Below, in pieces: positions 1-61,691 of a stretch of DNA of 64,000 nt. Origin of the DNA: Apostichopus japonicus (taxonomy: Eukaryota > Echinodermata > Holothuroidea > Aspidochirotida > Stichopodidae). Under the pieces are notes generated by a model. The model had not been told where the DNA came from. It saw only the letters and a program-made list of their open reading frames with translations, and did not search any database. The position numbers and the translations under genes were made by a program. The DNA lies in contig NC_092570.1 of assembly GCF_037975245.1 (NCBI RefSeq), positions 6,491,001 through 6,555,000 on the forward strand, read 5' to 3'. Within the stretch, counting starts at the first letter, position 1. Every line of letters starts with the position of its first letter.

Positions 1-3000
1 CGAAAAACACCCTAAATGTGCATCAATGAAGCTGAAATAAATACATGATGTAGTTAACAGACTCGACAATAAATATGTAGTCCATTTAGGGTCATACATT
101 ATCTCAATAATTGTTAAAAAAAGCTTAAAGTTGGTCATAAGTCGCATTTTTATGATTCCATACTAAAATGCCGTATTGAGCTGCCCTGAGGTGGAGCTAG
201 ATTTTAACCCCGAAAAACACCCTAAATGTGCATCAATGAAGCTGAAATAAATACATAGTGTATTTAATAGACTTGACAATAAATATGTAGTCCATTTAGG
301 GTCATACATTATCTCAATAATTGTTAAAAAAAGCTTAAAGTTGGTCAAATGTCGCAATTTTTACGATTCCATACTAAAATGCCGTATTGAGCTGCCCTGA
401 GGTGGAGCTGGGTTTTAACCCCGAAAAACACCCTAAATGTGCATCAATGAAGCTGAAATAAATACATAGTGTATTTAATAGACTAGACAATAAATATGTA
501 GTCCATTTAGGGTCATACATTATCTCAATAATTGTTAAAAAAAAGCTTAAAGTTGGTCAAATGTCGCATTTTTATGATTCCATACTAAAATGCCGTATTG
601 AGCTGCCCTGAGGTGGAGCTGGGTTTTAACCCCGAAAAACACCCTAAATGTGCATCAATGAAGCTGAAATAAATACATGATGTATTTAACAGACTCGAAA
701 ATAAATATGTAGTCCATTTAGGGTCATACATTATCTCAATAATTGTTAAAAAAAGCTTAAAGTTAGTCAAATGTCGCATTTTTTATGATTCCACACTAAA
801 ATGCCGTATTGAGCTGCCTTGAGGTGGAGCTGGGTTTTAACCCCGAAAAACACCCTAAATGTGCATCAATGAAGCTGAAATAAATACATGATGTATTTAA
901 TAGACTTGACAATAAATATGTAGTCCATTTAGGGTCATACATTATCTCAATAATTGTTAAAAAAAAAGCTTAAATTTGGTCAAATGTCGCATTTTTATGA
1001 TTCCTTACTAAAATGCCGTATTGAGCTGCCCTGAGGTGGAGCTAGATTTTAACCCCGAAAAACACCCTAAATGTGCATCAATGAAGCTGAAATAAATACA
1101 TAGTGTATTTAATAGACTTGACAATAAATATGTAGTCCATTTAGGGTCATACATTATCTCAATAATTGTTAAAAAAAGCTTAAAGTTGGTCAAATGTCGC
1201 AATTTTTACGATTCCATACTAAAATGCCGTATTGAGCTGCCCTGAGGTGGAGCTGGGTTTTAACCCCGAAAAACACCCTAAATGTGCATCAATGAAGCTG
1301 AAATAAATACATAGTGTATTTAATAGACTAGACAATAAATATGTAGTCCATTTAGGGTCATACATTATCTCAATAATTGTTAAAAAAAGCTTAAAGTTAG
1401 TCAAATGTCGCATTTTTTATGATTCCACACTAAAACGGCGTATTGAGCTGCCCTGAGGTGGAGCTGGGTTTTAACCCCGAAAAACACCCTAAATGTGCAT
1501 CAATGAAGCTGAAATAAATACATGATGTAGTTAACAGACTCGACAATAAATATGTAGTCCATTTAGGGTCATACATTATCTCAATAATTGTTAAAAAAAG
1601 CTTAAAGTTGGTCATAAGTCGCATTTTTATGATTCCATACTAAAATGCCGTATTGAGCTGCCCTGAGGTGGAGCTAGATTTTAACCCCGAAAAACACCCT
1701 AAATGTGCATCAATGAAGCTGAAATAAATACATAGTGTATTTAATAGACTTGACAATAAATATGTAGTCCATTTAGGGTCATACATTATCTCAATAATTG
1801 TTAAAAAAAGCTTAAAGTTGGTCAAATGTCGCAATTTTTACGATTCCATACTAAAATGCCGTATTGAGCTGCCCTGAGGTGGAGCTGGGTTTTAACCCCG
1901 AAAAACACCCTAAATGTGCATCAATGAAGCTGAAATAAATACATAGTGTATTTAATAGACTAGACAATAAATATGTAGTCCATTTAGGGTCATACATTAT
2001 CTCAATAATTGTTAAAAAAAGCTTAAAGTTGGTCAAACGTCGCAATTTTTATGATTCCATATACTAAAATGCCGTATTGAGCTGCCCTGAGGTGGAGCTG
2101 GGTTTTAACCCCGAAAAACACCCTAAATGTGCATCAATGAAGCTGAAATAAATACATAGTGTATTTAATAGACTTGACAATAAATATGTAGTCCATTTAG
2201 GGTCATACATTATCTCAATAATTGTTAAAAAAAAGCTTAAAGTTGGTCAAATGTCGCATTTTTATGATTCCATATACTAAAATGCCGTATTGAGCTGCCC
2301 TGAGGTGGAGCTGGGTTTTAACCCCGAAAAACACCCTAAATGTGCATCAATGAAGCTGAAATAAATACATAGTGTATTTAATAGACTTGACAATAAATAT
2401 GTAGTCCATTTAGGGTCATACATTATCTCAATAATTGTTAAAAAAAGCTTAAATTTGGTCAAATGTCGCAATTTTTATGATTCCATACTAAAATGCCGTA
2501 TTGAGCTGCCCTGAGGTGGAGCTGGGTTTTAACCCCGAAAAACACCCTAAATGTGCATCAATGAAGCTGAAATAAATACATGATGTATTTAACAGACTCG
2601 ACAATAAATATGTAGTCCATTTAGGGTCATACATTATCTCAATAATTGTTAAAAAAAAAGCTTAAAGTTGTTCAAATGTCGCAATTTTTATGATTCCATA
2701 CTAAAATGCCGTATTGAGCTGCCCTGAGGTGGAGCTAGATTTTAACCCCGAAAAACACCCTAAATGTGCATCAATGAAGCTGAAATAAATACATAGTGTA
2801 TTTAATAGACTTGACAATAAATATGTAGTCCATTTAGGGTCATACATTATCTCAATAATTGTTAAAAAAAGCTTAAAGTTGGTCAAATGTCGCAATTTTT
2901 ACGATTCCATACTAAAATGCCGTATTGAGCTGCCCTGAGGTGGAGCTGGGTTTTAACCCCGAAAAACACCCTAAATGTGCATCAATGAAGCTGAAATAAA

Positions 3001-3262
3001 TACATAGTGTATTTAATAGACTAGACAATAAATATGTAGTCCATTTAGGGTCATACATTATCTCAATAATTGTTAAAAAAAGCTTAAAGTTGGTCAAACG
3101 TCGCAATTTTTATGATTCCATATACTAAAATGCCGTATTGAGCTGCCCTGAGGTGGAGCTGGGTTTTAACCCCGAAAAACACCCTTTGCAAATACATAGT
3201 GTATTTAATAGACTTGACAATAAATATGTAGTCCATTTAGGGTCATTCATTATCTTAATAAT
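1..3262. repeat. Satellite array, ~211-bp monomer, ~15 copies
   Basis: Tandem head-to-tail copies whose equivalent points fall near 163, 374, 585, 797, 1008, 1219, 1430, 1640, 1851, 2064, 2277, 2489, 2701, 2912 and 3126, giving 210-214 bp per unit. The array starts before the window and its last unit breaks down after about 3180 and fades by about 3262. Each unit contains the inverted pair CCCTAAATG / CATTTAGGG, roughly 85 bp apart. Most units contain a minus-strand open frame of 64 codons. I do not read it as a gene: the unit length is not a multiple of three and the frame repeats only because the DNA does. Variants recur in a fixed order (see findings). Confidence 0.97.
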
Positions 3263-3590
3263 TGTTCAAATATGTTCATCAATATATTTTACACAACTCA
3301 GGTCACAATGAGACACCGTAGCACAGTTTCAAAACGGGGCGCGGCTTAACACAATGGTTTGACATAATTGAACATCATTATATGCACTGAGCTGGAGCTG
3401 TGCAAAGTTGTAACCCCTGATGCCATCAGCTGATATTTAAAGTACAGTTACAAATAAAAGTTGATGCAATATGTAATGACACAGCAATTTGAATCTGATT
3501 TCTTCCATGAAGTATCTTCCATGAAGTATTTTACTTTCAGAAGTATTTTACGGTGACATAATAATCGATAAGGAGAAAAGTCAGAAAACA
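3263..3590 (+). promoter_or_regulatory. Gap between satellite and ependymin-related gene
   Basis: About 330 bp of unique-looking AT-rich DNA separates the end of the satellite from the ATG at 3591. It must hold the 5' UTR and probably the core promoter. An AT-rich stretch around 3432-3440 (ATATTTAAAG) could serve as a TATA-like element, but no transcription start can be fixed from sequence alone. A short duplication, TCTTCCATGAAGTAT, lies near 3500-3530. Confidence 0.35.
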
Positions 3591-6500
3591 ATGAAGATTT
3601 CATCGCTAACCGTGTTTGTCTTTGTGATCCAGGCAGCCTATTCTAACCAGGCAGCACCTGATCCTTGTTGCACTGCGGAGCAATTCCAGATAAGCTTTGG
3701 TAATATTACAGTAAATAACTACCATATCAGTTAGTTATGCTTCAGCCGTTGGGTTGAGAGTGCACAACGATCGGTACACGGTGATACTGTATGTAAGGAC
3801 TGGTGTAGATAACAACGCCGTGTGTATCCACTAACGTAGAACGATTAGAACAATACATGGTAAACGAAGGGATAAGCCTAGGTTATATGCATTCATAATT
3901 GTATACACAGTTCAAGTCCAGGAGAGCTCACAGTAGAAAAATCCTATATTAGAAATATTGATATTGTAGAAGCTAAAATGGTTGGGGCATGCATATTAGG
4001 GGGTGAAGGGGGCTGCACTAGAAAGTGACCTGGGGCAGAGGAGAAGGTCGAGGTGGATATTTTTCTCGTCAATTTTGAGCTACAATTTCTTTTAATATTG
4101 CGCTGTTAAATGAATTTTCAGGAGGAAATTAAATAGTGTAGCTATTGCAGTCTCACTATCAATATAGTAAATGCATTATCTAAATGGTAGACTCAAAAGA
4201 GAAAGTTGTCAGAAAGAGGGGGGATGGGGGTGGGGAGGGTGGTAAAATGCATTACTTTTCTGTAGGCTACATGTATACTGGAATGCATATTTTTGGAGTG
4301 GAATAAATACATTGTATTAGTGGCTGCATGAAGGTCATATTGCCATTTTAATAGAAACAATCCAATTTTTCCCACTTTAGGTACGGTAAGTAATTTGTAT
4401 CTCATGAAGAAATAAGCATTTTTCTGCATGCATATGTTCAGACAAGATCACTCACTCCATTGTTGCCAGTTGTAAAGTTCAACAATAAAATTACAAAATT
4501 TCTATTAAAATCAGGAAACTTGATATGAACCTTTCTTGGTATGAATCAATGGAGTTCATTGATGTTTGATATTGCTGGCTGCCAAAACAGAAATGTTTTG
4601 TGTGACAATTTTCATCAATATGTATGCTTACTACAAGGTAGTAATTATAAAGTGTTGTTGCAAAGTGTGTAGCGATATCTGTTCAATATTTTCAACTAAT
4701 ATTTTGTCATATTTCTCTCATAACAGGTGGAACTGTGGCTCAGAGCATCGATGATCGACCAGAAAGTATACAGGAATTTTTCAATGGTGCATTTGACTTC
4801 AAGAGTCAACGTTATGGGTTGGATGTGTACATTCACAACTATACTGATGGAACAGACATGAGATACAAAGTTTATCAGCTAATCAATAAGGTACAGAATA
4901 CATGTGTATATGTATTCGGAGTGTTAGCTCAGTGGTTAACGCCGGTGCCTTCCAATCATAAGGTCCCCAGTTGTAGTCACTCCAAAGATTAATGTATGTC
5001 GTCCAGTTACAGAGTTGTTGACAATTGACAATTCATAATCATGGACGTTAGATATGAATCTAAGAGACTGACTTCAGTCAGCTTGCGGCTTTGATAAGCC
5101 AATGATGGCTTCTTCACGAGTTCCTGCTTGCAGGAGGATCTAAATTCATACAAATTACCAACTCAGGTAGATATATTCAATCTCCCCTGTTTTTAGCCCA
5201 AAACAGAGGACTCAGGTGGTATTTGCTATAGGCAAGGAAGATCGTAATGTGAAATGGGACATATTAGCCCAACCGCCATTGTTATGAAGTTATCCACATG
5301 GCAAGACTTTGTAAAGTATTTGATGATGTATGGAAGTGATGGAAAAGCAAACTTTAGCAACATTCAAGACACTTCTTAGCAGAACATTGAATATCTGTGA
5401 CAACCAGTTACTATCCACAAGCCTTGATATTTGGGCTTTTAATTGCCTTGGTAATCCCAGTAGATTGAACCATTTGCTAGTGCAAGATTTACATGGTTGT
5501 GGTATTAAATCAAGTGGGAATTTTATATAGGCCAGTAGATTTTTTTTATATGCATAGACATTTTTCAGCAAGTGGCTAAATTGTGAAATTCAAAGCCTGA
5601 TCCAACTAACAAATATTTCATATCTGTTTCTTTTTATGACTCTACTAGCTTGCTTTGGACTTTTCTTAAAAGTTGTCTGGTTGGATTATGTACTTTCCAT
5701 ATTTCCACTCTAATACTTCTAACTGAAGTACAAATTTCTGACCTGAAAGAAATTGTTAAATAAATTGCAACATTAAAGTAATAACAGATCTGTCATTAAT
5801 TTCTTACTGTATTCAGGGAGTCGAGTACATCGTTCTGAATTCACAATGTACCGAGGTACCACTCCAAGTTCCACCATCTCGTTGTGTTCCCGGTAAGAAT
5901 TAGAGCCAAACGAAACAGTGCATTGTGCATGTTATGTTATGTAAATTGTCTATATTGTCAGTGAAGCTTTTTTGCATATTGAGAATATTTAGACAGCCGT
6001 GTATTTCAATGTTATTTCTATGTTTAATTAGTTGTAGTAGCACAACTGTAATTGTTGTTAGCTTTGGATGGCATTCAAGTGCCGGGTCTTGAGTGAGACA
6101 CGTCGTAAATACATGTACGCAAGGCATGCAACACATCATGTATGTTTTTTTTTTATCTCTTTCGCTAAGCCTCGCTCCCCAGAAATGTCCTAACAGATAA
6201 GCCCAGACCCGTTTTACGCCATAACTACACACGTTACACATTGCACTACATTGTCTGACAGCCTGGTAGTCACAAGGTCCTTTACACATGATGTTTTTGA
6301 CCTGTGGTTACCTTTGACCCATGGTTCTTTGACCCTTGGCATTTTGACATATGGTTACCTTTGACTCTAGTTCTTTTGCCACCCTTGATATTTTGACCTG
6401 TACTAGTTACTACCCATGGTTCTTTGAAACTTGGTTTTTGTCATATGTTTTATGTAATCAAATGGTTGTTTCACTCATGATTGGTGTAAAGTAGAATCAA

Positions 6501-9102
6501 AAAATTAGAGTCTTTGATATTTTTTGTAACAAAAACCTCTAAAGTTCACAAACCGCATAAATTTACCAATGGTCCAATTACAAGCCAAATGTTCAAATCA
6601 AACTGTCTGTTACATTTTGGGGATTGACCGAAACCTGATCGTTTCATTGTGAGAATACAGTACTGGTTTTCTGGGGTTATTTTTTCTGTTCCATCTCTGT
6701 ATAAGTTTCTTCTTACTCTTCTTTAATACTTTTCCCTTTAGATTCAGCAACCTACGTCACTTCTTTTTGGCTCGGAGACCAAGCTCTGTACCTAGACGAC
6801 TGGAAGGTTAAGGGTTCCTCAGCAGGTTTCGTTGGTGAAGTTTACTCCACCACTGCCTCAAAGGATTGTACACCTGGTCCCACGAATGCAGTTGGAACAA
6901 TGGATGTACAGGGACAAAAAGGTTTGATCTGAAAACATTTTCATCAGTTTATTCCAGAAATTTTCAACCAAACCTCACTGGGTGTTTGCTCACACTTAGA
7001 TTGGGATTAATGAAACTAATATGTCCTCTATCAGATTTTGTTTTCACTCAAATTAACAGTAATGTAAAGTGAATATAAAATGGCTTTGGGCAAGTCTAGA
7101 AAAAAAAAAGTCTCCCACTTACTGTTTGCAAATGACTGTTCACATGAAAACATGACGAAAACAACGAAATGGAATATTGACGTTTTCTCTATTATGTGAA
7201 TTAATTGTTGATTAGCCATGCCAATGAACTGTATTATTTTTTTAATAACAGTGCCAAGTAGAAATGAAGAATTTCCAAAATCAGCATATTAAAAAGCCGC
7301 TTTAAGCTGTCATATATTGTTGCATTGTTGTCGTACCGGTCAAGCCGTTTGCTGTCATTTTCACACATGATTCGATACGCCTCAAGTCTAACTAACACAT
7401 CTAAGTTTTCCCTTTTGATTACTACTAAAATTTGGTAACACAAATGTGAAAAACAAATTTGTATCCTTAACATGTGATATTTTCTTGCTCCGTTTTCCCA
7501 AACGTTATAAATTGAGGGAAAGAAAATGTAAAGGTTTCAACTTTTTCAGTTGCAAGTATAAGTTTTGGAGAGATGTTCAGCACTGAGAAATGTCTAAAAA
7601 TGACTTTGTTTTAATTTGTATGGTATAAATGGTAACGTTTGAAAAGCAAGTGAGGTTAATGTTGATAGCCCTGTTTCATGCAACTCAACAGAACAAATAA
7701 TGCAGTGTAAAAATAAGTGAATCAGTCAAACAGATAAACAAAAAACCAAAGCTTTGTACGAATATATTTTTACATTCTTTGGCCTATTTTTATCAACTTA
7801 CTATGTGTTTTAGACCCTGTTTGTGTTTTCTGTACTGTGTACCTTTCATTTATGTCGCTGTGGGTTAAAGGCATTGAAGACTTACCCCAAACCGTGTGCC
7901 GCACTTTGAAAAGTTAAGTTGCCGTTGCTTGCAAATGGCGTTTTCTTCTTGTCACTACAAAATGCAGACAATAATGAAACGTGATAATTTGTTATCTTTT
8001 ATCTGGACCTGAGATGTCCACGCTGCTATGTACACTGTGTTGAGGGTATTGACTGTAGCTGTATGTACTGACTATACACTAGTGTCTAATTACCGACGGT
8101 AGCAAGCTGTGTCTGTATTTTCTAGGATCGATGGTGGTGTCAAACACTTCTGTTACACCTCATTCGAAAGTAGGTCATATACCGGCATGAGACGTTTCTT
8201 TGTGCGTGAGTCTCCACACCCTTTAAAGGTGTTAATTAGCCATCATTTTGATGACTTACCTATTGACTTTGGAAATTGTGGCCCCAGCAACCTTCAAGTG
8301 CAGTGTTAACAATGTGACACCATTTTCAATGCCACGATGGTGTTGCCATATTAGCATATTCTATGTAGGTCCTTTTGCTTCTAAAGTGTGAACGAATCTG
8401 TAGAGAAGTAAAGGGAGTCTGAAAATGCCATAAGAGTTTTTACTCTTGTGGAAAATTCATGTACCGTTGCGGTACAAGCAAATTCAATGTGCAGTGGGTT
8501 TGCAGGCAACCCATTCCACATATGGCTTGATGTTCTTTCATTCTTTTATTTCATTCTTTCATTCAATCTTTCAGTGAAGTTCATGTCACAAGGAACATAC
8601 ATGAATTTCACCAATTCAATCAGTGATCCCGACTACTGGTTCGTACCTCCGGCATCTTGCTCTAATGCAACACAGCAGCAGGTAGGTCTCTCAGGGCTTC
8701 TATCTATAACTGATAATTATTCCAATTAAGCCAATCATGGTATTGTTTGGCATGAACAGAAAAAATTGATAAATATTGGCAGCTGTGGCCAAATGCCGAA
8801 TAGAGATGAGAGCGAAACCCCATCTGCCAAATCATGTAATAACTTTCTCATGACTTGGTAAAGTGCTGAAGACTAAAATGTTACCATTTTATTGCATTAG
8901 GTAGTAGATTTGTTAAGTGCATACTATAGGTTTGAAGGGGACAGGTAAGAGAGGGAGAAAAAAAAGTAAAATAAATCGAGTCGAACTACATTTGCTTCTT
9001 ACTTACATTTCGTACTTTCATTTCTCTTGTTAGGTGTCAGAATCTTGGTTCCAACCACTCCATACGTTGAGACGGCTGCGAGCAACAAACTTTTTTCTGT
9101 AA
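3591..9102 (+). CDS. Ependymin-related secreted protein, six exons, complete
   Basis: Exons 3591-3699, 4727-4890, 5817-5892, 6742-6921, 8575-8681 and 9034-9102 join in frame with GT-AG introns and encode about 234 residues. Residues 1-20 form a signal peptide (MKISSLTVFVFVIQAAYS, then an Ala/Pro-rich mature end). Family hallmarks follow in order: a CC pair near the mature N terminus (DPCCTAEQF), the segment ending LINKGVEYIVLN with a Cys three residues later, RCVPG, a long beta-rich middle (VTSFWLGD) and an SDPDYWFVPPASC region near the end. Possible N-glycosylation sites are NYT, NFT and NAT. Ependymin-related proteins are secreted calcium-responsive glycoproteins; they have expanded in marine invertebrates and have been linked to sea cucumber gut regeneration. 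The exact paralogue and function here are unknown. A SINE lies 27 bp after exon 2 and a MITE in intron 4. Exon 6 is the least constrained call. Confidence 0.92.
4918..5151 (+). repeat. tRNA-derived SINE, copy 1
   Basis: The head resembles a tRNA gene: a TAGCTCAGTGG A-box near 4925 and a degenerate B-box about 40 bp later. A non-tRNA body of about 165 bp follows, ending in CAGGAGGATC. The copy at 27388-27620 matches along its whole length with scattered differences and preserves the B-box better (GGTTCAAGTC). It lies in ependymin-related intron 2, same strand as the gene. I do not call a functional tRNA: no acceptor stem closes, and homology continues well past the tRNA-like part. Confidence 0.9.
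6288..6440 (+). repeat. Degenerate short repeat of TTGACC and ATGGTTCTTTG motifs
   Basis: Intron 3 of the ependymin-related gene holds a run of diverged units built from TTGACC, GGTTACCTTTGAC and CATGGTTCTTTG. Spacing is irregular, so it looks like an old minisatellite. It shares the TGACC-rich character of the large repeat at 28449-30993, but I see no extended match between them. Confidence 0.45.
7865..8226 (+). mobile_element. TTAA-bounded MITE, copy 1 (piggyBac-like)
   Basis: A 362-bp block starts TTAAAGGCATTGAAGAC and ends with an imperfect inverted counterpart that closes in CTTTAA, so both ends carry TTAA. A copy in reverse orientation lies at 24732-25095. There is no coding capacity. 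TTAA at both ends is the target signature of piggyBac transposons, so a non-autonomous piggyBac-like element is likely; TIR sequence alone does not prove this. It lies in intron 4 of the ependymin-related gene. Confidence 0.8.
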
Positions 9103-9944
9103 GAGGAGAAAGGAAGCCTTTTGTTAGATTTAAACCTTCACTGCTAGCCTAAGTTGTAGTATTAACTGTAGGTAGGATATTGATTAAACATAAAATGATT
9201 TTAAAGAATCTTTCTTTTTCTTAGCATTGTGGGATTATTATGGATTGATCAATTAGTTAACTAACATGGGAAGATTTCGAGCCTAATGTCAAAGATTTGT
9301 ACGGTTGACCCTAGCAACTTGGGGTTTGTATTCATTCACTCTATGGTAGTTGATGGTGTTGTCACATTAGTGAATTAGTAGCCACATATGTCATTTCACT
9401 TGAGATACATGAAGGAACAAGATGGAAATCCACAGAGTTGCAGATCTCACCTCCTCCACACAGTTTAGGCCAATTTGACCTCTGACCCACATTGACCTTT
9501 GACCTCGACCCTTAACAACCACAAACATATAGAAGATCAATGTGGAAAACAGACTTGCAGCAACTCAGTACTTACATGAGTACTCTAGTCAAGGGCGGCG
9601 GAAGCACCTTTAATCTGGGGGGGCACCGACATCAAAGGGCACTTTGCAGAAATTCGATTGGACTGATGCAGCCTTATATTTAGTACCCTTTATAACTCTT
9701 ATTGTATTATCTTATTTGCGTATACTCATCACTCCATCAACACCCCCCCCCCTCAATGAAAAATGCATACTAGCACTGCAATATCCAATGTGCAAATTGG
9801 GAAACAAGGAATAAGTTTTCTTTTGAGACAAAATGAGGTGAAATCATGCTAGTTGCTAATGTAGGAATCTTCCGAATTAGAGTTTATTTCTTGTTAATAT
9901 CTGAACAATTTTTTTCCATTCGAAAGAGCTTTGAGTTTGACCCA
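9103..9944. other. Downstream of ependymin-related gene, no gene seen
   Basis: AT-rich DNA with no recognisable exon. A TGACC-rich stretch lies at about 9476-9515, and a block starting near 9594 (GGGCGGCGGAAGCACC, then a G-run) looks like the end of another TIR element but has no partner that I found. A C-run occurs near 9743-9752. No classic AATAAA was seen within the first 200 bp after the stop at 9102. Confidence 0.5.
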
Positions 9945-12565: not shown

Positions 12566-15455
12566 ATGGCGCTGCTTGCCATGACTCCAAGAAAGGCATG
12601 TCGTGGCGTTATACTTTGTTTTGTGGGATTTCTTTTATACGGTCTGCTCTTTTTACAGTCTAAAAAACCAAGGTAGGTTTGACAATCGTCATAATAGTTT
12701 TGCAAAGAGTTGAATTGCATGTCCATTGACTATGATACATGCCAGGTGATTCATTGTTGATATATTACAACTATAATAGGAATATAATATACATATTAAT
12801 ATGTTATAGCAAGTGCACGTAAATATCGAGTTGTGTAAAATTAATGCGGAAACTGAATTGGCTGATCATTCTTTAATGATCACTGGTACCACAGGGAACT
12901 AACATTATTAGGGGCTGAGTGGGATATAGCAGGGGCGTATCCAGGGGGGCGCAACAGGCGCGCGCCCCCCCTATTGGCCGTCACCAAAAAAAAAAAAAGT
13001 TTAGCAAAAAAAAAAAAAAAAAAAATTGATGACGACCTTTATGTGAGATGTCGGTGATCGCTCAACCCCCCCCCCCCCCCTCCCGTATGCTTTATTTTTT
13101 GTTTGCCAAACAAAGGTTCTGGCGAAGTTCGGCGGCATAATAGTTTTAGAAACATAGATGGTAATTGTGTTTGTATTATCACTATAAACACTAAATGACA
13201 TGCCAGCCATACTAAATTGTGCATTTTGTGTCCATATTTACTGGAAATGTTGCTTATTATTAAGGTCGAAAAATGGATCACATATGGCCATGGGCGGCGA
13301 TCCTGGGTGGAGGGGGGATATATCCCCCCATGAAAATGGGTGGAGGGGATGTAATGCACCGTATCCCCCCCCCCCCACCAAATGCCAGGGATAAGAATAT
13401 TTTCATGCCTACATTTATGCATCTTCGTTAATGTACGGCTCTTTTTTAGCTTCATTTCTCGCCTACCATAAACGCAGTGCGATCTTTTCAAATAAAGCGT
13501 CTTTATAAAGCAAAAATAGTTGACTGTAGGCTTCATTGGCCCTATAACAACAAAATGTATTATTGCGCCCACGGTATTGATATAGTACATATATGCATCC
13601 TCATAGTATTCATATAGGCCCTATAGTAGGCCTACACACGTACATGTTCCCTCGAACAGCTGAGAATCTCATGTAACCAGGGTAATGCTTAATACACGTT
13701 TCACCTGGATGCCCTAGCAATCGGTACCTAGGAATGTAACTATGTGTAATTGTGTATTGCATGTGTATAGGCCTATAATAGCCTGCATGAGGCCATTTTC
13801 TTCATCGAATAATATAACAGAGCTCTCGAACATTCTAACGTTGCGCCTGAAACAAGATTGACAGGGGCAATTTTCCCAAAATAACACCCGAAATTTAAAA
13901 AAAAAGTATTTTGGATCCTGATTATGAGATATTTCGGACATGACATCCCTATTTTAAAGTTGGGTATATGCCGCTTGGAAACCTCGGGAAGTGCCGTTTC
14001 CGGCCATCTAGAGGGTTTGTTAATCCCAAAATTTTCTCATACGCTTCGCGCCAACTCATGGTGGCGCTACGCTTAGATAGTCAACAAGGTCATATCCCCC
14101 CCCCCCCCCCACTCGGAAGTACGGATCGCCACCCATGCATATGACACCATTTTGCATTTCAGCCCTTCTTTGAAAGCAAAAATTGTACACCCCTCCCCTT
14201 AGACCCATCCCCCAGGACGGCGATCATTCATGCCCCGCGCCCCCCCCCCATTGGAAAATCCTGGATACGCCCCTGTATAGGGCCAGGACTGAGTACTGAC
14301 ATCAAGCCACTCCTCGTTCTTCACTTTCGTAACCTTGAGTAATATCTATAAGACCGTGCATGTTTTTGTTTTTGGAAATGATTTTACTATTATAATTACT
14401 CCTTTCCCTCCTGCAAGTTAATTATAGCTTATATACGGACTCAAAGGTTTGTAAAGGGCTTTCACTTTCTTTATTTCTTTTCCTTTTTCAGCTCACTCCA
14501 GCCAATCCAAATCGAGAAAGCTAGTTTAGTCGTACTGCATCGTAGAAATAATAACCAACCCAACACTTCCGATTTAGCATTGCCGATGTCAGTTCAACTG
14601 CGGAACTTCATACCGAATGCATATATCTATCCTAACACTACTAGCTCCTATAGAAAATCTATCCTAGCCTTTCTACATAGTCCGAAAAGTGGTGGACTCA
14701 GCGTGAGAGACTGTCTACTCAAGTTATACCGCATAGCGAAAAAAGATCGTCCTCTCGTCGTTGCATTTTCGACGGTATCTGAAGTTCAGGAGAATTTACT
14801 CAACAACATCAGTTCGCCCAATGATTACTATATGGGAGACTCAGTAATGGGAATTTGCGATCACGTGACCAACAGAGATTGTTCTTATTTCACAATGATG
14901 AGGGATCCATACGATAGAGCGATTTCTCATTATCTCTTCTGTCGAAGTGGTCGAGGCGGACAGACCCCATCCTGCAATACGACTTTGATTCAATACACCC
15001 TGTCACAGTGCAGCTTATATTTCCGCCAAATGACATCCCGCATGTTATGTTCCCATAGTAACGGTGACACCCAGTCCGGAAGTCAGACGTGGATTTGCGA
15101 TCCCAAACCAACGAGCATTGATCATTTACATCTCAACCGAGAGAAGAGAGAACAAGTCTTACATTATTTTCTTGATAACTTGGATAAAATATTTACTGTG
15201 ATTGGCCTGACTGAGGAGTTCGAAACCTCTCTCAGAATGTTTCAGAAAATATACGAAGAACCCTTTCAGCTCTGTAGAGGGAACCATGCAAATGCTGGTT
15301 CATATCTGGATGGTAATAAGGATGACATTCAAGAAGAATATAGAAAACAATTAATGGCAAATGACGACATAACTCGATGCTTACACGAAGATATTAAGCT
15401 ATATGAGAAGGCGACCGAAATTTTTCAGATCCAGGCTCGGAGTCTATCGTTGTAA
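12566..15455 (+). CDS. Golgi-type carbohydrate sulfotransferase, two exons
   Basis: Exon 1 is 12566-12672 and exon 2 is 14492-15455; they join in frame (35 codons plus 2 bases, then 1 base) to encode about 356 residues. Residues 12-31 form a signal-anchor membrane segment after a short basic cytosolic tail, the type II topology of Golgi sulfotransferases. The 5'-phosphosulfate-binding loop of the PAPS site is seen as FLHSPKSGGLSVRDCL and the 3'-phosphate-binding motif as MMRDPYDRAISHYLF (R-D-P-x-x-R-x-x-S-x-Y). Sequons NTT, NIS and NTT suggest a lumenal glycoprotein. This fits the sulfotransferase family 2 group that contains heparan sulfate 2-O- and uronyl 2-sulfotransferases; such enzymes move sulfate from PAPS to glycans. 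The acceptor cannot be told from sequence. The intron carries nested transposons. Confidence 0.9.
12930..14275. mobile_element. TIR DNA transposon relic in sulfotransferase intron
   Basis: Ends are perfect 16-bp inverted repeats: CAGGGGCGTATCCAGG at 12930-12945 and CCTGGATACGCCCCTG at 14260-14275. TATAG directly flanks both sides (12925-12929 and 14276-14280), a possible target duplication. The CAGGGGCG start is common among hAT-like elements, but hAT should give 8 bp of duplication, so the superfamily is uncertain. Interior C-runs, A-runs and a nested element leave no transposase frame. Confidence 0.85.
13290..14136. mobile_element. Second TIR element nested inside the first
   Basis: Inverted ends ATGGGCGGCGATCC (13290-13303) and GGATCGCCACCCAT (14123-14136) match at 13 of 14 positions. 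CATATG occurs just outside each end (13281-13286 and 14138-14143), a plausible remnant of target duplication. It lies wholly within 12930-14275, so it entered later or is an internal part of a composite element. The 183-codon minus-strand frame crossing its C-runs is not protein-like. Confidence 0.65.
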
Positions 15456-20273: not shown

Positions 20274-22447
20274 ATGCCACAGAATAAAATGACGGACAAG
20301 GCTAAAGAAAACAACAAGTCTCTTACTGCAGATGCCTTTTCTGTGAAATCACGATTGAAAAATTCTGTAGTGACACCTCCTCCTGCAGCCGGTGCTTTCA
20401 AGGCGAATCCATTAGTAAAACAGACAAGTTTCCGAAAATTCTACAACAGAGGCGACCTTCCAATTGCTTTGGAACACGATACCAAGGGAAACAAAATCGC
20501 ATGGAAGGTAAGTTAGTGATTTCATTTGTCCTTGTTTTCAAAATGTCTAAAGAGCATAATCTAGCTCAGGCTGATTAGGCCATTAGGGCCTAACCTAAAT
20601 AAGTTACATTGGTTCGATTGAGTAAACGAAGGACTAAACTACACAGGGCAAGCAGAACGTCGATTGTATCTTCGGTTGGCTAGTGAAGGCTACATTAACT
20701 ATAGAATAAGAAATGGAGTGTTGTAAGCATTCCAGAAAATTGGTCACTGGAGATTGAATTTGAAGTGTCCGACTGAAGCCTTTCATAGCGAACATGGTGA
20801 GAGCCTAGGCCTACATCACTTTATCATGTCAGATTTTCACCTTTCGAATGTAACACCAAAGAATCATTTTTACAGTGGCAACTCATGGCCACCCTTCATT
20901 TGTTGAAGGATATCATAGAACCGTAGCCTACCACAAAACAAATTCACATGAAGTTTATTCCTACTGTAATATGGTAAACAAACATGTCATCTTTTGACAT
21001 TGCAAGGCCACTGTAAAGAGATTTGCCAGTCATAGTAGATCTAAACCTAATCAAGCAGAGAATGTGAGCATTAAAAACGTGGGGTTTGACCCCCTAGCTA
21101 TTTATTATGATTTATTTTTTATCATAGTATAGAATTCAAATTGGTTTGTTATTTTACAATATATTGAATTGTACTTTCAGGTTGAAATTGAAAAACTGGA
21201 TTATCACCATTACCTCCCGATGTTTTTTGATGGCCTTCGAGAGACCAAGCATCCATATGGTTTCTTTGCTAGGCAAGGTGTTCATGACATGCTTGAGCAT
21301 GGAGGCAACAAAATCACAAGTGTCATTCCACAACTGATCATCCCTATCAAGAAGGCTTTAGAATTAAGAGAAGCTAAAGTAAGTAGCTTTCCTATTTTAT
21401 TGTCTTTCATCCTACAGTACAACCCCCCCCCCCCCCCCCCCAACTTCTGTTTTGTGCAAAATGGTACGCACATTTGTCAGGGAAGATTTAGATTTAACTT
21501 TGCATAGCAATATCAATGTTTGTTTATCGTAAAACAAAAATGAAACGCTAGTGTTCTATGTGTGTAAGGGTAGGCCTAAAACATCTTTTCATTTCTGTAG
21601 CAAGACCATGCTGCATTTTAGTTTCCTATGTGGTTATTGCTAGACCAAGTGGTCACTGTGTATGGCCCAAGCCACAATATAATTCATAGGTCTCACAAAG
21701 CTTACCACGGAATTCTGTGCCATACCTTTCATCTTACTCAAAGATATTTCAATAGCTAACACCATTATTGGTATAAATGATGGATTAAAGGCTTTCAGCA
21801 ATAAGTTGTGTATGTCAAGTTCACTGTGCTACATTTCTGCCAATTTTTGTGGAAGACTACTAGCCATCATCAATGTGAGCTGATTGTGTTGTTCATGAAC
21901 TATTACCATAGAGCATCTTTCACCCTTCAGATGGTTTGAAAAGATGTACAAAGTTTGCATAGTTTATCCATTTCTTTCACAGTCACACAACGACTAGAAC
22001 GTATAAATGTTTGATATTTCAGGAGTAAAAGGTGCACTGTCATTTACAGGGGTGGACCAGACCATAAAAGTGATACTGGCTCGGTGATCCAACCAGAGGC
22101 ACTTAATTACCTACATAGAAACAATGTTTTGATTATATCAATTTGGTTTGATTTCTCAACAGGTACTCTGTACAACACTTAAAGTCCTCCAGCACCTCGT
22201 TGTTTCAGCCGATTTGGTTGGTGAAGCGCTCGTGCCCTACTACAGACAAATTCTGCCCGTCCTTAATATTTTTATCAGCATGAATTGCAACTTGGGTGAT
22301 GGCATCGACTACGGACAACAGAGAAGAGAGAACGTCGGTACCTTGATTCAGGAGACACTGGAAGCCTTTGAAACATATGGTGGACAAGATGCATTCATTA
22401 ACATTAAATATATGGTTCCGACCTACGAGTCATGCCGCTTAAACTGA
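20274..22447 (+). CDS. PACRG: Parkin co-regulated gene protein (PACRG)
   Basis: Exons 20274-20507, 21181-21378 and 22163-22447 join in phase 0 and encode 238 residues, slightly shorter than the vertebrate protein (about 257) because the variable N-terminal tail differs. From about residue 38 ([20 protein letters not shown]) to the end ([13 protein letters not shown]) the product is nearly colinear with vertebrate PACRG, including [36 protein letters not shown] and [20 protein letters not shown] forms an alpha-helical repeat fold and is an inner-junction protein linking A and B tubules of the ciliary doublet. The ATG follows a strong acceptor-like TTCAG, so an upstream exon may add residues or only 5' UTR. 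In vertebrates PACRG is head-to-head with Parkin; I saw no Parkin exon upstream, but its first coding exon is too small to exclude. Confidence 0.97.
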
Positions 22448-24731: not shown

Positions 24732-25095
24732 TTAAAGGGAGTGAAGACGCGCGCACAAATAAACGTCTCATGCCTGTAATCTGACCTAGTTCGAATGAGG
24801 TGTAACAGAAGTGTTAGACATCACCATCGATCCCAGAAAATACACACACAGCTTGCTACCGTCGGTAATTAGACACTAGTGTACAGTCAATACATGCAGC
24901 TACGGTCAATACCCACAACACAAGTGTACATAGCAGCGATGGACATCTCAGGTCCAGATAAACGATAACAAGGTATCACGTTTCATTACTGTCTGCATTT
25001 TGTAGAAACAAGAAAATAACTTCACTTGCAAGCAACGGAAAGTTAACTTTTTCATAGGGCGGCACGCGGTTTGGGGCGAGTCTTCAATGCCTTTG
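24732..25095 (-). mobile_element. TTAA-bounded MITE, copy 2, inverted
   Basis: Reverse-complement copy of 7865-8226, about 364 bp. Its plus-strand left end is TTAAAGGGAGTGAAGAC; the right end reads GTCTTCAATGCCTTTGA, so the terminal TTAA has decayed to TTGA. The interior matches closely, for example the stretch containing GCTTGCTACCGTCGGTAATT. No coding capacity. Confidence 0.8.
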
Positions 25096-27019: not shown

Positions 27020-30000
27020 TCATCCCCTAAGTTGTAAAATATTATTCACCCAGGCACCATGAAGGTTTAACCACAGAAGAGATCTTACTAAGGCATACAA
27101 TGGAATATTAAGAAGGTGCCTCCAGGTCATCATGACGGAAGTTCCTTCTTTTCCGACCATTCTTCCCAGCCACCCGGAAAATGTCGAAATCTGGGAAAGG
27201 AAATAGAATGGCACTCAAGGTTAAGATGTGATACATTTTAACAAACTTAAGTCTGAGGATGATAAACGAAAAGGATTTGATCTCGTTCCTTGCTTCAGCA
27301 AATGGAAATGCATTTTAAGTTGTGCTCATTGAAATGAGAACGTGGGTCGACTGTTTTTTGAATTTCAGGCATATTTGAGTAATATAGGGAGTGTTAGCTC
27401 AGTGGTTAACGCCGGTGCCTTTCAATCCTAAGGTCCCTGGTTCAAGTCACTCAATGATTAATGTATGTCGTCCAGTTACAGAGTTGTTGACAATTAACAA
27501 TTCATAATCTTAGACGTTAAAATATGAATCTAAGAGACTAACTTCGGTCAGCTTGTGGCTTTGATAAGCCAATGATGGCTTCTTCGCAAGTTCCTGCTTG
27601 CAGGAGGATCTAAAATACATACATACCTACAAATATCACACTGTCAAGGTAACAATTTAAACCCATTCTTGACTTACTTATTATATCCAAGTGTCTTGAG
27701 AATATCTAGTCCAGTTTTACTGCGAATTCCACCGAGGCAGTGAAGGACAACTTTGGAATCGTCAGTCTCAGGTTTTTCTACCTTGTATCGGTCTTTGAAG
27801 TCATCAGCAGGAAGTGAAAAGGCACTGTAAAGGTCACCCACTGTATGAAATCAAACAAATAACATATCAACATCAGAACATTACCGGCCATTTATGATTC
27901 TTGATTTACAATATGTCACTCAGTTTTGCACCCCTTGCAAATATTTCAAGTTTTTCTTTTTCCAACATGAGAATCAGGACCTGTGAATATTAGCAAGTAC
28001 TAACAGCTGTAGCTATATAGACGCTCACACAATTACTCAATTACATGTTCAAAGTCCAAACAAGGCTTAGGTTTAATATGTGACAAATTACTTTGCCTTT
28101 GTACTTTCGAAACAACGACTTGTTAGGGGTACAATCAAAATACTGAAAACTTCTTGATGTAACTTAAAAGCTAAAAGCGTAATTTTTTTTCTTGAAATCT
28201 CTATGCAAACAAGTATAAAAACAACTGTAATAACAAGTCTTGTACATCATTGTTTAGGCCTACTTCACTTTTATTTTTACCAAATTTCTTAAGTTTCTTT
28301 ACTCTGTACACGCTTCTTAAATATTTAAAAAAAAACTATTTTATTAAGCATTATTAATGTATTTACGACTTCTTAAATCTTCATACTTTTTATATTATTA
28401 TTATTTGTCTTTTTTTAAAACTATTTTTTATTATGTCTTTTTTTTAAACAAGAGCCCAAGGGCACTGTGGTTCCTTGCTTGGGGTATATGACAATACACA
28501 TATTATCAAGCAAGATTGGGCTCAAATAGTCCAAGTAATTGTGGTCCTACATGTACGCATAAAGTAACCAACACTATAGCCAACACTTTTGTGATCACAA
28601 AGTGTGATCGGATTTTTGATCAAAAGGCACTTTTGAGATCTAAATATGGCGTCGAAAATGTAAGAAGTATAAGGTCACCTACAAGCGGGTCAACAGATAT
28701 GATAACATTGGTGACCACAGATGACATGACCTTTAAGTTTGAAAATGTTCCACCACCCCATTCACAACTTGTCCCAAATTATCAACCGTGGAAAACTGTA
28801 AAAATTCAAACATGTTTTCTTTGCCCATTTTCTCCCCCCAAACTACTAGTTTTTTAACATTAGCTGACCTTTGGTGACCTTGGATCACATGACCGCTAAG
28901 TTTGAAAATATTCCCCTATACCATTCGCATCTTGTCCAAAAAAATCAACCTTGTCACACCTTGGCACTGGGAGTTATTGCATGAAATGTCTGAAAATTAA
29001 CTTTGACCTCCTATAACTTCACACACAAAGCTCATCCAGGGGTCAACCTATTGACATTTATGATCAGAAGGTACCTTTAACATCTGAAAATAGCATCGAA
29101 ACTGTAAAAATCCCCAAAACACGAAAAGGTCACCAGAGGTCAAATTGAGGTCAAGGGTCACCCAGATGTGGGTGGACAATTGGATTACGTAGAAGCAACT
29201 CCCAACCCTAACTGACAATTCGTTCTCAAGTTATCGCAAAAATACTAGTTTTTTATCATTAATTGACCTTTGGTGACCTTGGATCACATGACCGTTAAGT
29301 TTGAAAATATTATCTTATACCATTTGCAACTACTCCAAAAATATCAACCGTGTCACACCTTGGAACTGGGAGTTATTGCATTAAATGTCTGAAAATTAAC
29401 TTTGACCTCGTATAACTTCGCACAAAAAGGTCACACGGGGGTCAACCCATTGACATTTATGATCAGAAGGTACCTTTAACATCTGAAAATAGCATCGAAA
29501 CTGTAAAAATCCACAAAACACAAAAATGTCACCAGAGGTCACCAGAGGTCAAATTGAGGTCAAGGGTCACCCAGATGCGGGTCGACAATTGGATTACATT
29601 GAAGCAACTCCCAACCCTAACGGACAATTTGTTCTCAAGTTATTGCAAAAATACTAGTTTTTTATCATTAATTGACCTTTGGTGACCTCGGATCACATGA
29701 CCGTTAAGTTTGAAATTATTCCCCTATACCATTTGCAACTTGTCCCAAAATATCAACTGCGTAATACCTTGGCACTGGGAGTTATTACACTAAATGTCTG
29801 AAAATTAACTTTGACCTCATATAACTTAACATACAAAGGTCACCTTGGGTCAACTTATTGACATTTTTGATCGGTGAGACCTAAATAGAGCATCAAACTA
29901 TACAAATTCAAACATTTTTTTCTTTGCCCATTTTCTCCTCCCAAATACTAGTTTTTTAACATTAATTGACTTTTGGTGACCTCGGATCACATGACCGTTA

Positions 30001-33000
30001 AGTTTGAAAATATTCCCCTATACCATTTGCAACTTGTCCAAAAATATCAACCACGTCACACCTTGGAACTGGGAGTTATTGCATTAAATGTCTGAAAATT
30101 AACTTTGACCTCGTATAACTTCGCACACGAAGGTCACACGGGTGTCAACCCATTGACATTTTTGATCGGAAGGTACCTTTGGTATCCAAATCTAGCATCA
30201 AAACGAAACATTTTCTTTTTTGCTCGTTTCCTCCCAAAATAAGCCCATTTTTTCTAATGTGACCTTTGACCTTTTGACCTTGGTTTCAGATGTAGTTTAA
30301 TCTCCTGATTCCAAAAAACAAAACGACAAGTCTGTGCAACCATCCTAACTCCGACCGAAAAACTTTGACCCCATATAACTTCGCACATAAAGGTCACACG
30401 GGGTCAACCTATTGACATTTATGTTCAGAAGGTACCTTTGACATCTGAAAATAGCATCAAAACTGTAAAAATCGCCAAAAACACGTAAAGGTCACCAAAG
30501 GTCAAATTGAGGTCAAGGGTCACCCAGGTGCGGGTCGACAATTGGATTACATTGAAGCAACTCCCAACCCTAACGGACATTTCGTTCTCAAGTTATCGCA
30601 AAAATACTAGTTTTTTATCATTAATTGACCTTTGGTGACCTTGGATCACATTACCGTTATGTTTGGAAACGATGCATTACCCCATTCACAACTACTCCCA
30701 AAATATCAACCATGTCGGACCCTGTCAATGGGAGTTATTGCTGTTTTTAATATATTGGTTTTTGGCATCTAACTGACCTTTGGTGACCTTTGCGGGCACC
30801 AAAAACAATAGGGATCTTCCTCTTACTATGGGCTATCCACCCAACAAGTTTCATCATGATACATCATTTCCTTATTGAGATATCGTGTACACAAGCCAAG
30901 CGTCACATACACACACACACACACGCACACACACACACACACGCCAAGTTGAACGCATAGGTTCCTTGCTTTGCAAAAAGCAAGGAACCAAAAAAAAATT
31001 TTTAAAAACTATTTTATTAAGCATTTTTTAATGTGTTTTTGACTTCTTAAATTTTCTTACTTTTTATATTATTATATGTCTTATCAGAGGGCCTCGTGGA
31101 AGATTAGCTATTGCTAAACGAGCTACCCTCTTAAAATAAAGTTGGAATAAAAATCATCTGACTTGCATAATCCAACTAACACCATCCCCAATGGTCTGAA
31201 ATCATTATCTCCTTTAACAATTTTAAAATATTATAACAATATTTTAAAATCAGCATGAATCTGAAGATCATTCCCAAAAACAACCCCATTACAACACATC
31301 TCTTTAAGGTTAAACTGTTTAACTTTCATCAAGAATCATGACATTTGATTCTATTTTGTGTTTTAGCTTGCTTTGGAACTAGGTAAGAAAGGAATCTGGC
31401 AGATTAATAGCCTATACTACATGGAATAATAAATTTCATGCTAATTAGCTATCTATCTACAAGTCCAAGACGTGCTTATGTCTGAAATTTGATAAAATTG
31501 CAGTCACAATTACCATTATGATCAGTGCATATTAGGGTTAGCAAGATGGCTGCAAAAGTCAGAGGTCAAAAGCAAACCCCAATTTGGACAGCGCAAACAT
31601 AGATATACGAAAAACATTCCACAATAGTTTTAATACAAGAAACCAGTGTAATGATTGTTAGGCCAATCTGTCAAAAGTAGGACGCTAAGGGGCTGCAGCA
31701 TCTTGCAGCTTGGCTGCATTGGGCATAATTTTTTGTGTTGTTTAGTTTCACACAATACATACTGCAGTTTGACAGGATTGGGGGGGGGGGGTGCCATACA
31801 GCAGTTTTGTTCATTTACAAATGTAGACAACCCCATTGTACTGTTTATTGGCTGTAATGGAATGGTTCACTGTTCATTACGAAGCTTCTTACCCTATGTT
31901 GCACCTAAACACTCCGTCATATCTTCCTCCTCACAGTTCTTTATATCTAAAATCATCTTCGTTTTCTTTTTCTGACTAAATAGTTCTGGCAATGCCAAAA
32001 CATGTCCTGTGTCCTTTCTCTGACTCAAGGTTTTATAAAAATACCATGTTAATACGCCCAGCAGCTTGAAGGGCAATTCAAGAGAAATAGAACTTAAAGA
32101 TATTAATTAATTGTAATTTAAATGAAACTTAGGCCACCCTACGAGGAATATTCACGGAGGCTCCAATCTGGCAGGTCTTTTCCAGCTCGGACCTCTCTCG
32201 GACGTCAACGATCAGAGTGTCACTTCTGTTTGAGAGTTCCTCCATTTCGGAGAAATGTACATCTTTCCAACTTTCAGAACCCTCATGGGTGGATGAAATC
32301 TCTCTTTTTGGCAGGTAATCTTTTCCTTTTAAAGATATTAAAACATCCATATAAAGTGTTATGGTTATCACAGTGCATGAGTGGAATATAACAAGTTAAC
32401 TACAGGCAATCCCCCAGATTCAGAAAGAGTGAGATTTTATTCCAAGGTACATTTTTTCACTTCCTGCTTCCCACAAAGTTTCCTTCTTAGATATGCTCCT
32501 TTCATTTATCACTGTAAATTTGAGGAAACACAAACAGATAAGTGATAAAATGCTAGTCTTTTATCCTGAGCAACTTCACTATACAGGGGAAGTGTAGGAA
32601 GTTGTGAAATAAAGGAGTGAGTGGTCTGTTGGATGGTGCTGGTCTCAGTAGGACACCCAAAATGCCAACAAAACTGCTAACAATTCATATCAAATGTTGG
32701 ATAAAAGATTGATCATTTTATATGTGTTGTTGAGTCACTGTGTCCAACAAATGCTTTTACTTGATAAATTACTTTTCACGAGTGCACGAGACGACATGAG
32801 CAAACTTTTCGCAGATAAAAGGCACATGCTGAGTACTTTCACCATTTGCACTGGATTTTGAAAGTAATTTCACTTCATTGATATAATGCATGTCTTGGGG
32901 AGGGGATTTTGAAATAAGCATATAACATACAAGACTTAATTTGCAATGGAAGATATTAGCATTCTTATTTTCAGCTTTCTAAAGCATTAACACAGGTCAT

Positions 33001-33457: not shown

Positions 33458-34243
33458 GTTGGAAAAATAACCATTCGTAGCAACAGTCAGTATATCTCTC
33501 TGCCTGTGAAAGAAAAGAAAACTATTTCAATGTACCAATGTCTTTAATTGTCAAAATTACCCTCGAACTTGCCTTCAGGACAAACAAAAGTGAAAGTATG
33601 AATGTAATTTCCTTCTACTGGCACACGATGATGTCGGAGGTCAGATTTCTCGGAGGTCAGATTTCTATCTGCGATTACCTTACCTTTAGCCAACCAAATC
33701 ACATGCTGCAGTTTGCCACCAATCACCTCAATACTTAATACTAGAACCTCCAATCGGACTTACTGGTAATCTACTGTACCATCGTATTACCAGAACTTGG
33801 CTTTTCAAAGATAATCATGTATATATATGTTCACTTCCGAGAAAGTCCAGAACAAATGAGACAACAAAATATGGCATATGCATGAATTCTGTTGTTGGGA
33901 AATAATGGTACTGTCCCCTGAGGAAGAAGAGTTTCATAATTTCATTACAGAGTACCTTGACAGCTCCTCTTCATGGTCAAAATAAAGAACAATGGTATGG
34001 AACATATAAGCAAATCATGGAATAATTGATTGTCTGAATATAGTGAAGAATTTTGTTTAGTCCAAGATATTGCATACACTTAAGTTTTGTGTAAAACGTC
34101 TGATAAATGTCATTGCATTTGAGCAGCAATGGAAATTTTAAACATTGGGGTTGCACTTTTACATGAAACGTAAGGTTCTGTCTTCAGTTAGAGTATAGTG
34201 CTCTCTTTTTCAAATCAATGTATCTTTATCTTTTCCCTGACAG

Positions 34244-42405: not shown

Positions 42406-61691
<19,286 letters not shown>

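Follow-up and report, generated by a model that had tools for sequence, protein, structure and literature searches.

Within a window of 64 kb (the whole stretch of Apostichopus japonicus DNA analyzed), a preliminary description had singled out a transposable-type repeat at 28449-30993 that carries many DR4 and DR1 arrangements of the nuclear receptor half-site AGGTCA, and the locus therefore raises the question of what kind of element this is and whether its half-sites are placed there for receptors or by the element's own repeats. Our reading, which we hold with a probability of about 0.75, is that the block 28449-30998 is one copy of a HINE, a non-autonomous Helentron, lying in minus orientation in a T-tract within an AT-rich repeat of the host, and that its DR4s are a by-product of a sub-repeat. 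The parts of the element and its surroundings are given below.

28449..30998, minus strand, whole element, assigned to the HINEs by likening its layout to the descriptions of DINE-1 and Cg_HINE
Right side, within the T-tract (A-run 30990-30998 on the plus strand), 5' end of the element, boundary uncertain by about 9 bp
30978..30989, minus strand, 5' subterminal repeat GGTTCCTTGCTT, exact 12-mer
30960..30989, minus strand, hairpin of the 5' subterminal repeat and its inverted copy, 13-bp stem
30904..30942, minus strand, microsatellite that reads (GT)n along the element and (CA)19.5 on the plus strand
28840..30790, central array of tandem units, 399-409 bp long apart from two shorter ones (about 294 and 260 bp)
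28708-28790, diverged partial unit copy ahead of the central tandem repeats
28469..28480, minus strand, 3' subterminal repeat AAGCAAGGAACC, 12-mer match
28454..28463, minus strand, 3' palindrome GCCC-TT-GGGC, GCCCTTGGGC, read from the sequence, with no support from folding
28331..28448, left part of the AT-rich host repeat split by the element; 28331-28401 matches 31004-31075 at 90%
31004..31075, right part of the split host repeat, matching the left part

Read on the minus strand, a T-tract is followed by the 12-bp subterminal repeat with its inverted copy and by (GT)n; then come the central tandem repeats, the other subterminal repeat, a small palindrome and a T-rich flank. A HINE layout with these parts has been described for DINE-1 and oyster Cg_HINE (PMC4067079, PMC7492417). 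The subterminal inverted repeats (28469-28480 and 30978-30989) are identical at 12 of 12 positions, where at least 11 bp are expected of a HINE, and the inverted copy of the 5' repeat adjoins it at 30960-30971, as in HINEs. On both strands of the 64-kb window the exact 12-mer occurs only at 28469, 30960 and 30978; allowing one mismatch added one more place (27284), and five places were found with two mismatches. When 66 nt that include the hairpin were folded as single-stranded DNA, it had a centroid energy of -14.4 and a minimum free energy of -15.9 kcal/mol (z -5.0), and none of 200 shuffles was equally stable. The microsatellite sits between the 5' end and the tandem units, which lie on its left, as the HINE layout has it. 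In agreement with the non-coding nature of HINEs, the element contains a single stop-to-stop ORF of at least 120 aa, which is 121 aa long and gave no Pfam match when this ORF was scanned; one full element frame contains 45 stops. Scans of the 64-kb window for Rfam families (at the gathering threshold) and for tRNAs gave no hits. What leads us to this class is the presence, in HINE order, of the subterminal repeats, one of which has an inverted copy and a strong hairpin, the microsatellite and the central tandem repeats, and the earlier term "transposable-type repeat" can thus be replaced by a more precise name.

Cg_HINE from the Pacific oyster, as described, has the same 5' subterminal repeat with inverted copy, microsatellite, short central satellite-like array, 3' subterminal repeat, palindrome and T-rich site, whereas its consensus monomers measure 138-181 bp (13 clusters) against about 400 bp here, so that the two are likened by layout, not by sequence (PMC7492417). 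DINE-1 and HINE-Mo are described with subterminal repeats of 12-15 bp, microsatellite or tandem repeats in some elements, a 3' stem-loop and a T-rich target, and in DINE-1 an inverted repeat is linked to the 5' subterminal repeat (PMC4067079). Thomas et al. count the Tsp elements of Strongylocentrotus purpuratus among the DINE-1-like elements (PMC4067079), a likeness of description with no sequence compared. The 3' end fits the HINE reading less well. Its subterminal repeat is 20 bp away from the element end, in contrast to 38-60 bp reported for mite elements, and its palindrome, unlike those described for DINE-1 and HINE-Mo, is short and unformed in the predicted fold (PMC4067079), in which other bases pair (z -0.52, 49/200 shuffles as stable). 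The HINE reading also rests on a single copy, and no other copies of the element were detected by blastn in the 64-kb window.

At the insertion site, nine T precede the element and TTT follows it on the minus strand, a T-rich setting that agrees, in this one insertion, with the entry between T and T expected of a HINE. Once joined, the flanks look like the uninterrupted host repeat nearby, apart from an additional A/T run where they meet. No target duplication was found beyond the A/T runs at the junctions, within which a few duplicated A/T would be indistinguishable. The perfect 12-bp inverted repeats close to both ends might also suggest a MITE-like TIR transposon instead of a Helentron, a classification to which we give hardly any credence: CACTGT on the left and the A-run on the right lie directly outside the repeats, leaving no duplication that abuts them, and one end has the repeat in both orientations with an adjoining microsatellite, as in HINEs. 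The same confusion has occurred before, DINE-1-like elements of sea urchin, Bombyx, Danaus and Rhodnius having once been misannotated as MITEs (Thomas et al., PMC4067079).

Comparison with the listed DR4 and DR1 sites showed that 11 of 11 were letter-exact. They belong to two kinds of block, A and B.

28865..28880, minus strand, DR4 of an A block, letter-exact
29264..29279, minus strand, DR4 of an A block, letter-exact
29673..29688, minus strand, DR4 of an A block, letter-exact
30626..30641, minus strand, DR4 of an A block, letter-exact
30774..30789, minus strand, DR4 beyond the clear units, letter-exact, with flanks of uncertain relation to the A block
29127..29160, plus strand, B block cluster of DR4, DR5 and DR1 sharing four half-sites
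29526..29569, plus strand, B block cluster with one extra decamer ATGTCACCAG (29526-29535) in front
30489..30522, plus strand, B block cluster

The 64-kb window contains 8 perfect AGGTCA-N4-AGGTCA (3 on the plus and 5 on the minus strand), and each of them lies within the element. Among RGKTCA pairs in 28449-30993 we counted 10 DR4, 4 DR5, 4 DR1 and 1 DR2, and no other spacing among DR0-DR8. Absent from the earlier list were the DR5 AGGTCA-AATTG-AGGTCA, which connects each plus-strand DR4 with its DR1, and a TGACCT triple with different spacing at 30260-30280 in a diverged unit. The four AGGTCA-type half-sites of the B block start 10, 11 and 7 bp apart; the first two of these steps are near one helical turn.

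AGGTCA is the most frequent 6-mer of the element and also heads the list within a single unit. On both strands of 28449-30993 it was found 33 times, compared to a mean of 1.34 and a maximum of 8 in 1000 dinucleotide shuffles, and much of this count is due to the tandem repeats copying themselves. The half-site richness nevertheless goes beyond chance, because one unit by itself (29240-29648) contains 7 AGGTCA when 0.22 are expected (2000 shuffles, maximum 3). Most of the sites, however, are copies of one A-block DR4 and one B-block cluster of four half-sites, carried along by the tandem unit of 399-409 bp, and so do not count as independent.

The spacing itself follows a shorter period. For same-strand AGGTCA pairs no more than 40 bp apart, start offsets were 10 bp in 8 cases, 11 bp in 3, 21 bp in 3, and 7, 8 and 15 bp in one each. 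DR4 spacing equals the period of a 10-bp sub-repeat, with which it arises automatically, and the copy number of the sub-repeat varies among units. The V2 unit (409 bp) is longer than the V1 unit (399 bp) by one decamer ahead of the plus-strand DR4, and V5 also lacks that decamer. The extra decamer ATGTCACCAG resembles AGGTCACCAG at 9 of 10 positions and adds no half-site itself. The preliminary description had allowed that the element's repeat unit might yield the sites as a by-product, and this is the better-supported reading, given the sub-repeat and a half-site conservation that does not detectably exceed that of the immediate neighbours.

The plus- and minus-strand DR4s are the arms of an inverted repeat, matching at 16/17, 16/17 and 17/17 positions in the three full units, and one may ask whether it is this pairing that is conserved, and not protein sites. 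B-block AGGTCACCAAAGGTCAA pairs with A-block TTGACCTTTGGTGACCT, a stem that belongs to the centroid fold of the unit, and might form a hairpin in a single-stranded transposition intermediate or seed unit duplication. We regard this as quite improbable, given that a single unit of the 400-bp type folds no better than shuffles (z -0.76, 22/100) and that the DR5 and DR1 members would stay unexplained; moreover, three units whose arms are nearly invariant offer no covariation.

Strings of this kind were also looked for elsewhere. DR4-containing core patterns gave 0 matches in viral_contigs and 0 in genome_contigs, two right-end-region patterns gave 0 and 0 in viral_contigs, and the element had no match to phages. 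Three looser half-site strings matched stretches of the collections searched, one of them 6, another 13 and the third at least 116; the 135 looser-string loci were rejected as relatives and treated as chance or heptamer repeats, since among the matches listed they span at most 38 bp at E values of 0.015 or worse. The set of at least 116, in prokaryote contigs, and the set of 6, in viral contigs, are occurrences of a TGACCTT heptamer array, which has DR1 and not DR4 spacing. Prokaryotes have no nuclear receptors, and since heptamer arrays occur in their contigs, such strings can arise without receptors.

Could the unit instead be a nuclear receptor docking array under selection, in which AGGTCA binders open germ-line or early-embryo chromatin for the transposition machinery and, secondarily, receptor-responsive enhancers are spread? 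Promiscuous AGGTCA binders such as COUP-TF, HNF4 and RXR partners would be candidates. The excess of half-sites per unit, the restriction of pairs to DR4, DR5, DR1 and one DR2, and the diverged unit with three TGACCT in another spacing all speak for it. So does the precedent of Alu with DR2/DR4 and HNF4 sites, likewise a mobile repeat bearing nuclear receptor half-site pairs, although Alu is a primate repeat for which receptor binding was shown by ChIP and the sites here are candidates (PMC1785376, PMC3252374). In open-licence literature (titles, abstract starts and term counts), no paper among the matches listed dealt with receptor sites in Helentrons or in mobile elements of echinoderms or molluscs.

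Conservation among units bears on this proposal in both directions. In the three full units (V0, V3 and V4, which miss large unit parts, were excluded), half-sites (AGGTCA or GGGTCA) had 2 variable columns of 54 and the rest of the unit 59 of 337 (p = 0.004; 1/409 circular shifts as low), and after removal of CpG columns 2/54 compared to 41/303 (p = 0.025). With a mask of AGGTCA only, the values were 2/42 and 59/349 (p = 0.025), or 2/42 and 41/315 without CpG (p = 0.09), the latter weakening the case for docking. The A-region (five copies) gave 3/30 vs 54/191 (p = 0.023; 15/221 shifts as low) and the B-region (three copies) 0/30 vs 18/178 (p = 0.053; 11/218 shifts as low). These sets overlap, so the tests are not independent, and the motif was picked after being seen repeated, which biases the results in its favour. 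Within this one copy, then, half-sites vary less than the whole unit, but no excess conservation is detectable over bases at most 10 bp away (2/54 vs 7/80, p = 0.22; three units, little power). Eight A-type blocks were compared, two of which (at 30258 and 30774) are of doubtful homology: a perfect DR4 is present in five and one with a mismatch in a sixth, while a seventh has another arrangement and the last has lost the site. The DR4 at 30774 might have been a site preserved in an A block that has otherwise diverged (16/16 intact, flanks 39/59), but this support was dropped because 86 of 1000 shuffled flanks score equally. Altogether, we consider selection for receptor docking unlikely. Its broader form, in which central repeats of the Helentron lineage are selected docking arrays, with the four B-block half-sites and the inverted A-block DR4 recruiting orphan nuclear receptors and thereby directing the element to open germ-line or early-embryo chromatin, where it seeds receptor-responsive enhancers across an invertebrate genome, is very doubtful.

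For the HINE with a by-product array, what is known of the family suggests that an autonomous Helentron at another genomic site would supply the Rep/helicase that recognizes the ends, and that this partner would move the element by rolling-circle replication. The centre is a short satellite-like array with a unit of about 400 bp, and in each unit the GGTCA/TGACC words lie in the 10-bp sub-repeat and its inverted counterpart; decamers probably originate by slippage, and on this reading tandem duplication of the unit multiplied a few DR4-type sites to the eleven listed. Receptors may bind here as to any AGGTCA, which on present evidence appears incidental and presumably without regulatory effect; a role of the half-sites as hormone- or lipid-responsive enhancers is possible, and they are candidates only.

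As it stands, the element adds one to the HINEs that carry satellites, and it illustrates clearly how DR4 hormone response elements in a block can be mimicked by a 10-bp sub-repeat within a tandem unit. Were receptors to bind the half-sites, the Alu precedent would extend to rolling-circle elements of invertebrates, whose arrays would deliver many sites per insertion.

On its minus-strand layout, the block at 28449-30993 (whole element 28449-30998), earlier described as a transposable-type repeat, can be identified as a HINE, a non-autonomous Helentron. Read on this strand, a T-tract is followed by a subterminal repeat, its inverted copy, a (GT)n tract, tandem repeats, a second subterminal repeat, a palindrome and a T-rich flank.

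Features of the element in minus-strand order
30989-30978, minus strand, 5' subterminal repeat GGTTCCTTGCTT
30971-30960, minus strand, inverted copy of GGTTCCTTGCTT
30942-30904, minus strand, (GT)n
28480-28469, minus strand, 3' subterminal repeat AAGCAAGGAACC
28463-28454, minus strand, small palindrome GCCCTTGGGC

The same plan and T-rich targets are given for HINEs in PMC4067079 (Thomas et al., 2014) and PMC7492417 (Vojvoda Zeljko et al., 2020), and oyster Helitron/Helentron elements carrying satellite arrays are also treated in PMC8268682. GGTTCCTTGCTT and its inverted copy are predicted to fold into a hairpin with a 13-bp stem (z = -5.0 against shuffles), and no coding content was recognised in the element. 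Two features fit the plan less well: palindrome GCCCTTGGGC does not pair in the predicted fold, whose stability is no better than that of shuffles, and the 3' subterminal repeat lies 20 bp from the end, compared to 38-60 bp for mite HINEs in PMC4067079. Support for the assignment as a HINE is good but comes from a single copy.

A 72-bp direct repeat (90% alike) flanks the element on both sides and is read as a host repeat interrupted by the element, because it lies some bases off the element ends and a partial further copy stands between the repeat and the left end. The joined flanks resemble the adjacent uninterrupted host repeat and carry an additional run of A/T where they meet. No target duplication was seen next to the subterminal repeats, but one of only a few A/T could go unnoticed within the A/T runs; oyster HINEs are described as lacking a target duplication (PMC7492417).

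The eight DR4 and three DR1 sites (direct repeats of the nuclear-receptor half-site with spacers of 4 and 1 bp) of the preliminary description were letter-exact in all 11 cases. The half-site is in excess over shuffled sequence, with 33 AGGTCA on both strands of 28449-30993 versus a mean of 1.34 and a maximum of 8 in 1000 dinucleotide shuffles. AGGTCA is the top 6-mer both across the whole element and within one unit of 409 bp, where it occurs 7 times (0.22 expected). Pairs of RGKTCA in 28449-30993 amounted to 10 DR4, 4 DR5, 4 DR1 and 1 DR2, with none at DR0, DR3, DR6, DR7 or DR8.

The window outside the element (61.5 kb) holds 47 AGGTCA; two of them, spaced 16 bp, belong to two perfect copies of the 16-bp unit TCGGAGGTCAGATTTC at 33634-33666. 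Outside the element, RGKTCA pairs at DR0-DR8 spacing occur only at 9476-9505, a tight cluster of four half-sites (TGACCTCTGACCCACATTGACCTTTGACCT) arranged DR1-DR4-DR1, which may be a better candidate receptor site than those of the element.

The element is a tandem array with units of 399-409 bp plus two shortened ones (about 294 and 260 bp). Every full unit carries, in its B block, AGGTCA-4-AGGTCA-5-AGGTCA-1-GGGTCA on the plus strand and, in an A block about 100 bp further on, one minus-strand DR4, and therefore the eleven sites would descend from about three or four ancestral ones. Among eight A-type blocks (a count that includes those at 30258 and 30774, of uncertain homology), five hold a perfect DR4, one a DR4 with a single mismatch (29967) and one three half-sites at different spacing (30260-30280), while the block at about 28700 has lost its DR4.

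Where two AGGTCA on one strand lie within 40 bp of each other, their starts are separated by 10 bp in eight pairs, by 11 and 21 bp in three pairs each, and by 7, 8 and 15 bp in one pair each. As a DR4 equals two 6-mers at a 10-bp offset, repetition of the decamer AGGTCANNNN yields DR4. Alignment of full units V2 (409 bp) and V1 (399 bp) shows that the surplus of V2 is one decamer, ATGTCACCAG, before the plus-strand DR4; it is also missing from full unit V5. The suggestion that the sites are a by-product of the element's repeat unit thus gains from the 10-bp offsets and the extra decamer and is our preferred account. ATGTCACCAG is 9/10 alike to the following decamer AGGTCACCAG but has no AGGTCA of its own and adds no half-site. 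Plus- and minus-strand DR4s within a unit form inverted-repeat arms (16/17, 16/17 and 17/17). These arms pair in the centroid fold of a unit, whose overall stability is unremarkable (z = -0.76). TGACCTT heptamer arrays, which have DR1 spacing, occur in at least 116 stretches of prokaryote contigs, including Calothrix and Nostoc isolates. Such prokaryotes are not known to have nuclear receptors, and therefore these strings can arise without a receptor; the argument covers DR1-type strings and reaches the decamer at most indirectly.

Across the three full units, half-sites (AGGTCA or GGGTCA) were variable in 2/54 columns versus 59/337 elsewhere (Fisher p = 0.004), and 1/409 circular shifts was as low in variability. 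With CpG columns removed the counts were 2/54 versus 41/303 (p = 0.025); an AGGTCA-only mask gave 2/42 versus 59/349 (p = 0.025) or, without CpG columns, 2/42 versus 41/315 (p = 0.09). Compared to non-half-site, non-CpG bases within 10 bp, the direction was the same at small numbers (2/54 versus 7/80, p = 0.22). In these alignments the half-sites sit inside a conserved stretch, within which three units are too few to set them apart; oyster HINE monomers have low-variability segments too (PMC7492417, legend of Fig. 3).

Other repeats of the window comprise a satellite array at 1-3270 (period about 211 bp, about 15 copies, self-matches 89-96%) extending to its left edge, two copies of a dispersed 364-bp repeat in opposite orientation (7867-8226 and 24732-25094; 89% alike) and an imperfect tandem region at 46918-47429 with overlapping self-matches of 70-79%. 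Two copies at 4918-5152 and 27388-27623 (91.6% over 237 bp) look by eye like a tRNA-derived SINE. TTAGCTCAGTGGTTAACGCCGG lies close to the start, and the right-hand copy (27388-27623) also shows GGTTCAAGTC beyond it and a tail resembling (ATAC); ARAGORN reported no tRNA in the window. On the plus strand, a 357-codon open frame (14382-15455) matches Sulfotransfer_2 (E = 2.2e-5), and the open frame at 21133-21507 contains a PACRG exon (Pfam ParcG, 1.4e-27) whose closest solved relative is PDB 8snb, presumably a sea urchin entry; it points to an animal host, perhaps an echinoderm or a related lineage.

Alu repeats carry DR2 and DR4 half-site pairs (PMC1785376), and HNF4 sites in Alu are backed by ChIP and reporter data (PMC3252374). 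Receptor heterodimers also bind in half-site mode and at several spacings (PMC6555819); therefore, binding in vitro would be unsurprising here and alone no evidence of function. Among the matches listed in the open-licence literature, no paper combining Helentrons with nuclear receptors was found. It is possible that the element acts as a putative receptor-responsive enhancer. The simpler account, which we prefer, is that a sub-repeat within the unit was multiplied through tandem duplication, which would have given rise to the many DR sites.
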